In this document: positions 9,648-36,794 of the stretch, one piece after another
Layout: the number at the start of each line of letters is the position of its first letter
Position numbering within the stretch: position 1 is the first letter of the stretch
Program-made: the position numbers and the translations under genes
NCBI GenBank assembly: GCA_905236025.1
Contig: CAJOOB010000015.1
Span: 1 to 36,879 of the forward strand
Direction: 5' to 3'
Source: an uncultured Lachnospiraceae bacterium
Lineage (GTDB): Bacteria; Bacillota; Clostridia; Lachnospirales; Lachnospiraceae
DNA: 36,879 bases
The notes under the pieces: generated by a model
The model's database searches: none
Told to the model about the DNA's origin: nothing
The model's input: only the letters and a program-made list of their open reading frames with translations

Positions 9648-9686
9648 TTCACAAAAATTTCAGTTAGATTTCACAAAACCGTCACC
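9648..9686 (+). promoter_or_regulatory. 11-bp-phased direct-repeat operator (Pho-box-like architecture) upstream of deoB
   Basis: TTCACA-N5-TTCAGT-N5-TTCACA-N5-GTCACC at 9648, 9659, 9670 and 9681, exactly 11-bp steps. Ends 33 bp before the -35 of the candidate promoter at 9719. Confidence 0.5.
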
Positions 9687-9718: not shown

Positions 9719-9747
9719 TTGATAATACTGAGAAAATGTAGTAAAAT
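9719..9747 (+). promoter_or_regulatory. Candidate sigma-A promoter for deoB-pdp
   Basis: TTGATA-N17-TAAAAT. It overlaps the automatic ORF start at 9719, supporting translation from ATG 9806 instead. Confidence 0.6.
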
Positions 9748-33561: not shown

Positions 33562-34797
33562 TTACCGGACTACCAGGGTTTTTCTGGTATATTCGGTCGG
33601 GATGTCTTCTTTATACAAAGACATATATACCATACGATAAATACTGTCGGCGCGGCCGTTAAGCTTTGCCTCGTCTTTAGCCGCCAGGGCCGTGTCTGAG
33701 TTATTTTTATTAAGAGATTTTAAATCTTTTGCATAATTTACAATGCAAAAGATTTTGTTTTTTTCAAGGTTTTCCTTCACTTTTGCAAGTAAATCAGAGG
33801 AGTCTTTTTTAAATCCCAAAACAAAGGTAATGCTTGGAAAAGAAGATACATCGGATTTTTTAATATCAAGCATTATGTGTAAGAGAGCGCGGTCGATGGC
33901 CGTCTTTACCAGATCTTTGCTTTTTAATACGTCGCCAAAATCGCTAAAAGTCTTATAAGAGTCCGATTTATTAATAATTTTATTTGATAAATCCTGTGAG
34001 ACGCCGTAAATATTGGAAAAATCACGGGTTTCAATTAATTTTGTGCCGAGAACTTTTGAAAAATCATCATTTGTAAGCGGCTTTAAGTCCTGATTACTCA
34101 TATTATTTAATATATAGTTTCTTAAAGCAGAGGCGCTGTAATTAATATCTTCTTTGTTTTTTGAATGATAATCTGCAAAAGCTCTTTTTATGCATATTGG
34201 GGTGATTTTATTGTTAAGTCTTTCAATTGCTCTTAAATACTCAATCGCTAAGATGTTATTAGGTGAAGAAACAACGGATTTGACTGTATTTAATTCGAAA
34301 CCTTTAATCAATGAAACGTCTTTATCATCTGTTTCTTTTGTAAAAATAAAGTCAACGAGTGCGTCATATCCTGCAAATGCAAAGTTTTTGCCGTTTTCAA
34401 GACTTTCTTTAATTTTATCAAAATAACTTTCCCTGTAATTATTAATAATACGTGCGATAGCAGATAAAAGCTCTAAATCATCACATTCCGCACCAAAGGC
34501 AAGGTGAGTGATTCCTGCGTTATATAAAAGCATAACGCCGGCACTTGCAAAATTTTCTGCACTTGACGTTGCATATGCAACGGGGAGTTCAAGAACCAGT
34601 GAGACACCGTTTAATAAAGCGCTTTTTGCACGTTCATATTTATTGAATATGGCTACCTGCCCGCGCTCTGTGTAATTTCCGCTCATAAGTGCAATTATTT
34701 TTGCATCCGTAACTCTCTTTAAAGACTCGTCAATAAGGTATTTGTGGCCTTTGTGGAAAGGGTTGTATTCACTTATTATTCCAATAATATTTTCCAT
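33562..34797 (-). CDS. tmcAL: tRNA(Met) cytidine acetate ligase-like nucleotidyltransferase
   Basis: MENIIGIISEYNPFHKGHKYLIDES; MSGNYTERGQVAIFNKYERAKSALLNGVSLVLELPVAYATSSAENFASAGVMLL. Confidence 0.95.
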   Translation of the reverse strand: MENIIGIISEYNPFHKGHKYLIDESLKRVTDAKIIALMSGNYTERGQVAIFNKYERAKSALLNGVSLVLELPVAYATSSAENFASAGVMLLYNAGITHLAFGAECDDLELLSAIARIINNYRESYFDKIKESLENGKNFAFAGYDALVDFIFTKETDDKDVSLIKGFELNTVKSVVSSPNNILAIEYLRAIERLNNKITPICIKRAFADYHSKNKEDINYSASALRNYILNNMSNQDLKPLTNDDFSKVLGTKLIETRDFSNIYGVSQDLSNKIINKSDSYKTFSDFGDVLKSKDLVKTAIDRALLHIMLDIKKSDVSSFPSITFVLGFKKDSSDLLAKVKENLEKNKIFCIVNYAKDLKSLNKNNSDTALAAKDEAKLNGRADSIYRMVYMSLYKEDIPTEYTRKTLVVR

Positions 34798-34826: not shown

Positions 34827-34855
34827 ATTATATCAAACCGCCGAAATTCTTACAA
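34827..34855 (-). promoter_or_regulatory. Candidate sigma-A promoter of tmcAL
   Basis: Minus strand TTGTAA-N17-TATAAT. Confidence 0.55.
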
Positions 34856-34856
34856 G

Positions 34857-34906
34857 TTCAGTAAAAGTTTTAATGGATTTCACCTTTCTTTCACATTTAA
34901 ATGATA
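34857..34906 (+). promoter_or_regulatory. 11-bp-phased direct-repeat operator (second Pho-box-like lattice), upstream of the lipoprotein gene
   Basis: TTCAGT-N5-TTTTAA-N5-TTCACC-N5-TTCACA-N5-ATGATA in exact 11-bp register; shares TRGATTTCACM with 9666-9676. Confidence 0.5.
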
Positions 34907-34985
34907 TTCTACCCTAAACATCATTAGATGATTACATAAATTAACTGTTGAATATTGAAACTATTTTATAGATGAAAGGAAAAGT

Positions 34986-36794
34986 ATGAAGAGACAATTA
35001 AAGACATTACTTGCATTACTTATGGTTCTTGCTCTTTCCTGTATGCTTTATGCGTGTGGAGACACCGACACATCAAGTGCTGTAGGTACAAAATCAAACA
35101 CAGATTCTTCTGATGATACGACAGAAGAAGACACATCCGAAACATCAGATGATGACACAGACGATGATGATTACAACGAAGAAGATGATGATGATGATGA
35201 TGACTCAGATTCAGACACAACCACAACGACGGCGTCATATACAACCGCGACATACAGTGCGGCTGAGACAACCGAAACTTATGATTCATCATCAGTTACA
35301 AATAAGATTACATTAAACGGAAGTTCAATAACAACAACGGGAAGCGGGACAACCGTTTCAGGCTCAACCGTAACCATTACGGATGAAGGCGTTTATTATG
35401 TATCAGGTACCCTTTCCAATGGCCAAATTATAATTGATGCAGACAGTGATGCATCAGTAACACTTGTTTTAAACGGAGTAACAATTACGTGCAGTGACAG
35501 TGCGCCAATCTACGCAAAACAGTGCAGCATTCTTATAATTAACCTTGTTTCCGGAACAACATCAACGCTTACGGACGGAAGCTCATATACATACGAATCT
35601 GCAGACAGCGACGAACCGAATGCCTGTCTTTACTGTGATGATAATATGACAATTAACGGAAGCGGAAAGCTTGCTGTAAATGCAAATTACGCAAACGGTA
35701 TTACTGCCAAAGACGTATTAAAGATTTATAACGGAAATATCGTGGTAGATGCTGTAAATAACGGTATTACCGGTAAAGATGCCTTGATTATTACCGGAGG
35801 AACGATTAAAGTTACATCGGGCGGAGAAGCGTTAAGAGCTTCAAATTCATCAGATGCATCTAAGGGTTACATCCTTATTACGGGCGGTACATTTACATTA
35901 GACGCAGGAGATGATGCAATCCAGGCAGAAACCGTACTCACAATTGAAGGTGGTACGTTTGACATAACAGCGGATTTGAAGGGTATTAAGGCGGATACGT
36001 CCGTATCGATTACCGGCGGAACAATTGTGATGGATGTTGATGACGATGGCATCCACTCAAACGGATCAATTACAATAAGCGGCGGAGATATTGAAATTGC
36101 TGCTGATGATGACGGTATTCACGCTGATGTTTCAATTGACATTACAGGTGGAACAATCGATATTACATATTCGTATGAAGGTGTGGAAGCAGAGACAATT
36201 ACATTTGCCGGCGGTACAACAACAATTTATGCAACGGATGACGGCGTTAATGCTTCTGTAAATACAGGATCCGCAAACATCTATATTGAGGGCGGCGTAT
36301 TGTATGTAACAACTGCAAGCGGTGATACGGACGGTCTTGATTCAAACGGAAACATCACAATAAGCGGTGGCTTTACCGTTGTATACGGTGGATCAAGTAT
36401 GGGCAATGTGGCAGGCTCAATCGATGTTGACGGAAGCATATCAATGACAGGCGGTACGGTTGTTGCTTTAGGCGGTATCTGTGAAACACCAAACAGCTCA
36501 AACTGCGGTACGGTTGTAATGAGTGGAACAAGCTTCTCGTCCGGTACTTATATTGTTAAGGATTCAAGCGGAAACACACTTATTACATTTAGCGTAAGCG
36601 GTACATATTCAAGCGGATGGATTGCGTCAGAATATATTGAGCCATCTTCGAACAGTAATTATACACTTTATAAAGACGGTTCATCATTCTACAGCTGGAC
36701 TCAGTCATCAAATACAGTGGGAAGTTCATCTTCACAGGGAGGCTTTGGTGGTGGAAACAGCAATCCACCGGGTGGAAACAACAGAAGATGGTAA
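34986..36794 (+). CDS. Lipoprotein with DUF4353-type carbohydrate-binding / right-handed beta-helix repeats
   Basis: Lipobox LLMVLALSCMLYAC; Asp/Glu/Ser/Thr-rich linker; repeated ITGGTxxIxxxDDGIHA coils; C-terminal GGFGGGNSNPPGGNNRRW. Confidence 0.88.
   Translation: MKRQLKTLLALLMVLALSCMLYACGDTDTSSAVGTKSNTDSSDDTTEEDTSETSDDDTDDDDYNEEDDDDDDDSDSDTTTTTASYTTATYSAAETTETYDSSSVTNKITLNGSSITTTGSGTTVSGSTVTITDEGVYYVSGTLSNGQIIIDADSDASVTLVLNGVTITCSDSAPIYAKQCSILIINLVSGTTSTLTDGSSYTYESADSDEPNACLYCDDNMTINGSGKLAVNANYANGITAKDVLKIYNGNIVVDAVNNGITGKDALIITGGTIKVTSGGEALRASNSSDASKGYILITGGTFTLDAGDDAIQAETVLTIEGGTFDITADLKGIKADTSVSITGGTIVMDVDDDGIHSNGSITISGGDIEIAADDDGIHADVSIDITGGTIDITYSYEGVEAETITFAGGTTTIYATDDGVNASVNTGSANIYIEGGVLYVTTASGDTDGLDSNGNITISGGFTVVYGGSSMGNVAGSIDVDGSISMTGGTVVALGGICETPNSSNCGTVVMSGTSFSSGTYIVKDSSGNTLITFSVSGTYSSGWIASEYIEPSSNSNYTLYKDGSSFYSWTQSSNTVGSSSSQGGFGGGNSNPPGGNNRRW
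35184..35204 (+). repeat. (GAT)6-GAC trinucleotide tract encoding poly-Asp
   Basis: gatgatgatgatgatgatgac inside the acidic linker of the lipoprotein. Confidence 0.85.

Follow-up and report, generated by a model that had tools for sequence, protein, structure and literature searches.

A phased four-box promoter of a Lachnospiraceae surface lipoprotein gene and its probable place in an htrA-type regulon

In a 36,879-nucleotide stretch of DNA from an uncultured Lachnospiraceae bacterium (hereafter, the window), a series of short T-rich hexamers lies between tmcAL and a divergently transcribed lipoprotein gene, and a comparable array is found upstream of deoB. This locus raises the question of whether such a lattice is a genuine regulatory site and, if so, which of the two flanking genes it serves and to which regulon that gene belongs. 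All five hexamers of the original prediction are found where they had been placed, at 34857, 34868, 34879, 34890 and 34901; the fifth, ATGATA, is present but overlaps the extended -10 element (34902-34910) and is not counted as a box of the lattice (Table 1). The 11-bp phase proposed for the TTCA units holds, although TTCA itself occupies only three of the five slots, and the 11-nt core described as common to this site and the deoB site does occur in both, starting at 9665 and 34874, one base ahead of the positions first given. At one conserved position box 2 does not follow the consensus, and box 4 is separated by N9 from the -10 hexamer of the lipoprotein gene. A consensus scan of the plus strand found no sigma-A -35/-10 pair for this gene. 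Transcription is predicted to start at about 34917, with a 5' leader of about 69 nt in which no notable structure was detected (z 0.45).

Table 1. Features of the lipoprotein and deoB sites in the window and boxes of the three orthologous loci
Feature	Position	Strand	Remarks
Box 1, TTCAGT	34857-34862	+	Outer upstream repeat; grid offset -24; window sequence
Box 2, TTTTAA	34868-34873	+	Weak T-rich repeat; grid offset -13; window sequence
Box 3, TTCACC	34879-34884	+	Core repeat; counterpart of first CACA of htrA-type promoter
Box 4, TTCACA	34890-34895	+	Core repeat at the -35 place; equals second CACA, 9 bp before -10
Extended -10, TGaTATTCT	34902-34910	+	Hexamer TATTCT at 34905-34910; TG one base ahead
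Target gene, secreted lipoprotein	34986-36794	+	Asp-rich linker; Cthe_2159 carbohydrate-binding domain (PF14262, E 2e-90)
tmcAL, divergent neighbor	33562-34797	-	HIGH nucleotidyl transferase (PF05636, E 2e-95)
tmcAL promoter, TTGTAA-N17-TATAAT	34827-34855	-	Sigma-A, 10/12 matches; TG before -10
Four-box array upstream of deoB: TTCACA, TTCAGT, TTCACA, GTCACC	9648-9686	+	11-bp steps; boxes start at 9648, 9659, 9670, 9681
Likely deoB promoter, TTGATA-N17-TAAAAT	9719-9747	+	Sigma-A; 32 bp downstream of the array
L063 boxes, AACACA-TTTGAT-ATCACA-ATCACA			11-bp phase
L065 boxes, AACACA-TTTTCA-ATCACA-ATCACA			11-bp phase
L102 boxes, AACACT-TTTCTA-TTCACA-TTCACA			11-bp phase

A link to a wider class of promoters emerged from the comparison with 299 genomes of the family, in which the pattern TTCAC-N6-TTCAC-N9..11-TATAAT matches 14 times and its reversed control 4 times. 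Since one of these matches sits before an HtrA-like gene, the upstream regions of htrA in relatives, identified as PF13365 matches, were collected (n = 30). The pattern CAC[AC]-N7-CACA-N9-TAnnnT is present in 17 of the 30, at 66-139 nt ahead of the start codon, compared with 0-1 of 30 for shifted spacings, and a matrix built from these 17 promoters detects 26 of the 30 at a threshold of at least 9 bits. The htrA gene of the present genome also carries such a promoter (AACACA-N5-TACACA-N9-TATTAT). Because the training set consisted only of htrA promoters from other genera, with this genome left out, the matrix is independent of the finding that it was used to assess. In the window, it ranks the lipoprotein site first with 17.7 bits, 10.7 bits above the next position (7.0), a score reached by 1 of about 2.66 million positions from other genomes. 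In terms of the class definition, nnCACA-N5-nnCACA-N9-TAnnnT without a -35 element, the site reads TTCACC-N5-TTCACA-N9-TATTCT, with one box ending in CACC instead of CACA.

The more specific form CACA-N7-CACA-N9-TAnACT has 68 matches family-wide, spread over 41 of 60 genera, and its reversed control has 5. In the genomes common to both searches, 22 of 49 matches lie just upstream of a PF13365 (htrA) gene, as judged by comparing coordinates by hand. When 71 sites were aligned (three matches within coding sequences were afterwards removed, leaving 68), TTCA-like and TTnA-like elements became apparent at -24 and -13 from the first CACA, exactly 22 and 11 bp ahead of the core hexamer, giving a grid of boxes at -24, -13, -2 and +9. 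These upstream boxes played no part in the selection of the sites; TTnA occurs at -24 in 36 and at -13 in 33 of the 68, the next commonest offset having 14. The resulting architecture, box-N5-box-N5-nnCACA-N5-nnCACA-N9-TAnACT, precedes htrA in most related genera. With a matrix comprising the four boxes and the -10, the lipoprotein site scores 18.9 bits, a value not attained anywhere among 2.65 million background positions; the runner-up in the window has 0.1. A variant of the promoter in which CACA is replaced by CATA (TTCATA-N5-TTCATA-N9-TATAAT or nearly so) was also observed, before a second gene for an HtrA-like PDZ protease at L191 (contig C111 of this genome), L332, L336, L339 and L348; this version precedes the HtrA-like gene of the C111 type in 6 of 20 cases.

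Conservation at the locus itself could be followed over some distance only, as the best tmcAL identities in relatives are about 40% and the comparison set contains no close relative. A long divergent lipoprotein gene is present at 4 of 106 tmcAL loci, namely in the window and at three others, and all four encode Cthe_2159 lipoproteins, the other three being 37-39% identical to that of the window. The four-box scores at these loci are the top four of the set (21.5 at L102, 21.3 at L065, 18.0, and 13.3 in the window), and none of the remaining 102 loci, which lack the lipoprotein gene, exceeds 8.2. In line with the original prediction, relatives with the same neighborhood retain the spacing: all three hold four boxes at exact 11-bp steps, so that tandem head-to-tail repeats of about 11 bp, the arrangement of OmpR/PhoB-type operators, are found in the window and in each of the orthologous loci. 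Box 2 is weak and T-rich there too (TTTGAT, TTTTCA, TTTCTA), and the closest -10-like hexamer, TAAAAT, lies 8 bp past box 4, compared with 9 bp here. L063, L065 and L102 are alike around the core boxes and may represent a single lineage, that is, fewer than three independent witnesses.

Chance phasing has nonetheless to be weighed, given that TTCA is a frequent word in AT-rich DNA. On the plus strand of the window, two positions, 9648 and 34857, have at least three TTCA words in five 11-bp slots, and the minus strand has one such position, compared with an average of 0.2 over the two strands combined in dinucleotide shuffles; other grid periods mostly give totals of 0-2, and a period of 21 gives 4. 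This excess, taken alone, is only suggestive. In the whole genome, TTCA-N7-TTCA-N7-TTCA is only modestly enriched (24 matches versus 13 in the control), and an array defined by TTCA only was dropped because it abstracts the motif wrongly; in 60 genomes of the family, strict triple repeats of TTCAC had 3 matches and were uninformative. What decides against chance is the sequence evidence from other genomes: enrichment across genera is specific to the spacing, the upstream boxes fall at 11-bp steps, and the lattice is kept at the orthologous locus. The phased lattice is thereby confirmed as a real feature, and it is extremely improbable that the site represents fortuitous phasing of T-rich intergenic DNA or an alternative-sigma promoter that functions without a repeat-binding activator. 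An alternative reading makes tmcAL, on the opposite strand, the gene that the array activates or represses, in place of the lipoprotein gene. It draws on the position of box 1, which abuts the tmcAL -35 element (34850-34855) just as originally noted. The boxes share the plus-strand direction with the -10, from which they are separated by the N9 spacing of the class, the tmcAL promoter is near-consensus in its own right, and the array is absent from those 102 tmcAL loci that have no divergent lipoprotein gene, all of which makes this reading very unlikely. Of the earlier proposal that the array could act on either gene, the half concerning the lipoprotein gene survives: the site most likely activates this gene and not tmcAL, and steric repression of tmcAL might occur as a side effect.

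The relationship between the two arrays of the window is less straightforward. With a matrix restricted to the boxes, the deoB array has the top score in the window (19.7 bits, reached by only 2 background positions) and the lipoprotein site comes second (13.3 bits), which agrees with the suggestion that both belong to one regulon, but no -10 was found in register at N9 after the deoB array. Because such a -10 is lacking and the likely deoB promoter lies further down, the array might act from upstream or might repress.

Elsewhere in the genome, the promoter pattern has 10 exact matches, a count that depends in part on the finding itself, in that CACC was admitted in the first box on account of the window site, in contrast to the independently trained htrA matrix; about 2 would be expected from base composition by our estimate. 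The matches comprise the window site, htrA, ftsH, a second Cthe_2159 gene (on contig C71), a divergent pair on contig C42 and four others, mostly inside genes, and together with the family-wide excess of the motif they bear out the predicted enrichment beyond the two original regions. Under the four-box model htrA scores 28.7 bits, ftsH 18.4 and VTC 14.2, the VTC-DUF4956 operon matching the pattern with one mismatch, and the transcripts that resemble small RNAs score 24.1 and 12.5 bits (C42) and 16.2 bits (C113); the second Cthe_2159 gene matches the pattern but obtains only 2.9 bits. A third Cthe_2159 gene, on C42, was rejected as a direct target, as a small-RNA-like transcript and a terminator intervene. 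The ftsH promoter of this genome (L260:4428, minus strand, corresponding to contig C93 of G000) is high-scoring; the ftsH genes of relatives have no class promoter in the same register, and some display TTCAC repeats before a possible -35. Neither ftsH nor VTC was retained as a family-wide member. Since both carry the motif here but relatives do not generally share it, the content of the regulon varies between genomes.

Many other promoters of the class lead into hairpins and terminators instead of a gene, and no ORF was found in these predicted hairpin transcripts. Seventeen stretches contain a U-rich UCAU, which in 14 is followed by a stem of 9 or more pairs (82%, versus 1.8% in shuffles) and in many by a C-rich stretch, the stem sequences varying among members. 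The three such predicted transcripts of this genome, two on C42 and one on C113, share U4-7CAUA, a hairpin, CCCCCU and a terminator. The divergent C42 pair (L259:5694, minus strand, and 5797, plus strand; about 9.6-9.9 kb on C42 of G000) is built of a 5' hairpin, U4-5CAUA, a GC-rich hairpin, CCCCCU and a terminator, and the C113 transcript, of the same build (L266:475, minus strand, on contig C113 of G000), adjoins a tRNA-like sequence. A second putative subtype, observed in other genera (L391, L397, L403, L406, L407), has a short hairpin followed by a sequence resembling ACUAUCUCCCCCCUCAU and likewise lies behind a CACA-N7-CACA-N9-TAnACT promoter. No match was obtained in Rfam at the gathering threshold, and relaxing the search to E values up to 1 returned matches at chance level only, far below the cut-offs. 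Small RNAs of this class are apparently undescribed so far; the predicted modular molecules (5' hairpin, UUUUUCAUA, variable GC-rich hairpin, CCCCCU, terminator) could block Shine-Dalgarno sequences.

Among known systems, the closest in design is CiaR of streptococci, which controls htrA and several small RNAs from promoters composed of a direct repeat, NTTAAG-N5-TTTAAG, and a -10 located ten bp past the last repeat (PMC3091779). The N5 direct repeat, the -10 shortly after it and the combination of htrA with small RNAs as targets are all found here, a manner of working that constitutes similarity and not membership: the repeat is CACA instead of TTAAG, there are four boxes, the two upstream ones weaker, and the bacterial family is a different one. 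The CiaR recognition sequence TTTAAG-N5-TTTAAG is not present at the window site, whose boxes are TTCACM, and the small RNAs share a type of promoter, not a demonstrated homology, with those of CiaR. The CssRS secretion-stress system controls htrA and htrB. The CssR box of Bacillus subtilis is the octamer TTTTCACA (PMC6749698). Boxes ATTTCACC and CTTTCACA of the window match it at 6/8 and 7/8 positions, respectively, a likeness in octamer sequence. To our knowledge, small RNAs are no part of the CssR regulon. PHO boxes, too, are direct repeats of 11 bp to which OmpR-family regulators bind head-to-tail, and their Streptomyces core, GTTCACC, is close to TTCACC (PMC4415409). The site could then be bound by PhoP/PhoB and the gene respond to phosphate starvation, a reading to which the motif before the VTC (polyphosphate polymerase) gene of this genome lends itself. 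The VTC promoters of relatives, however, are mostly without the motif, the sole PhoU match in the incomplete genome is a 571-aa cotransporter-like protein and not part of a pst operon, and the targets are envelope proteases, surface lipoproteins and small-RNA-like transcripts, among which htrA and the small-RNA-like transcripts dominate, instead of phosphate genes. A PHO regulon, the first idea considered, is unsupported by these targets and we regard it as unlikely. A search of the available literature returned no relevant described counterpart of the regulon in this bacterial family.

The reading that we favor, and consider highly probable, is that the site provides the Cthe_2159 lipoprotein gene with an activator-dependent promoter, controlled by a regulator of the OmpR/PhoB type within an htrA-type regulon that most likely responds to envelope or secretion stress. 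By analogy with PhoB/PhoP, two dimers of the phosphorylated response regulator would occupy the four tandem hexamers, which at 11-bp intervals would lie along the same side of the double helix. With the -35 missing, the dimer at boxes 3 and 4 would substitute for it and bring sigma-A RNA polymerase to the extended -10 located 9 bp further on. A single regulator would serve the htrA protease, the small RNAs and the lipoprotein, here and across the family, and it is because htrA and the small RNAs would answer to the same regulator that the lipoprotein is assigned to an htrA-type regulon. The assembly, 85% complete, encodes six OmpR-family regulators, and at this completeness the search for a motif link to any of them yielded weak hints only. 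A cluster of response regulator, histidine kinase and HtrA-like genes on C111 was discarded as the regulator locus, the arrangement not being recognized in relatives. In another genus, the motif lies 23 nt ahead of the start of an OmpR-family response regulator gene (L386:1554-2306), a candidate for an autoregulated regulator; its best match in this genome, the C90 regulator, is only 40% identical, which is suggestive but not decisive.

The lipoprotein gene is probably part of a family-wide regulon, with cell-envelope stress as the most likely theme. It is the small RNAs and the regulator that merit follow-up. On balance, we lean slightly toward the existence of an undescribed family-wide regulon in which one response regulator, acting at four-box promoters, would govern HtrA, surface lipoproteins and multi-copy modular small RNAs; with the same slight preference, we view it as a counterpart, in Lachnospiraceae-like gut bacteria, of CiaRH and its csRNAs that uses a different recognition sequence. 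If this is correct, it would account for a class of promoters without a -35 and connect the quality control of proteins with a surface lipoprotein that is conserved and binds polysaccharide. It would also predict small RNAs that carry C-rich stretches, perhaps of anti-Shine-Dalgarno character, and belong to no Rfam family, and it would provide a stress regulon that can be put to the test in an abundant group of gut bacteria.
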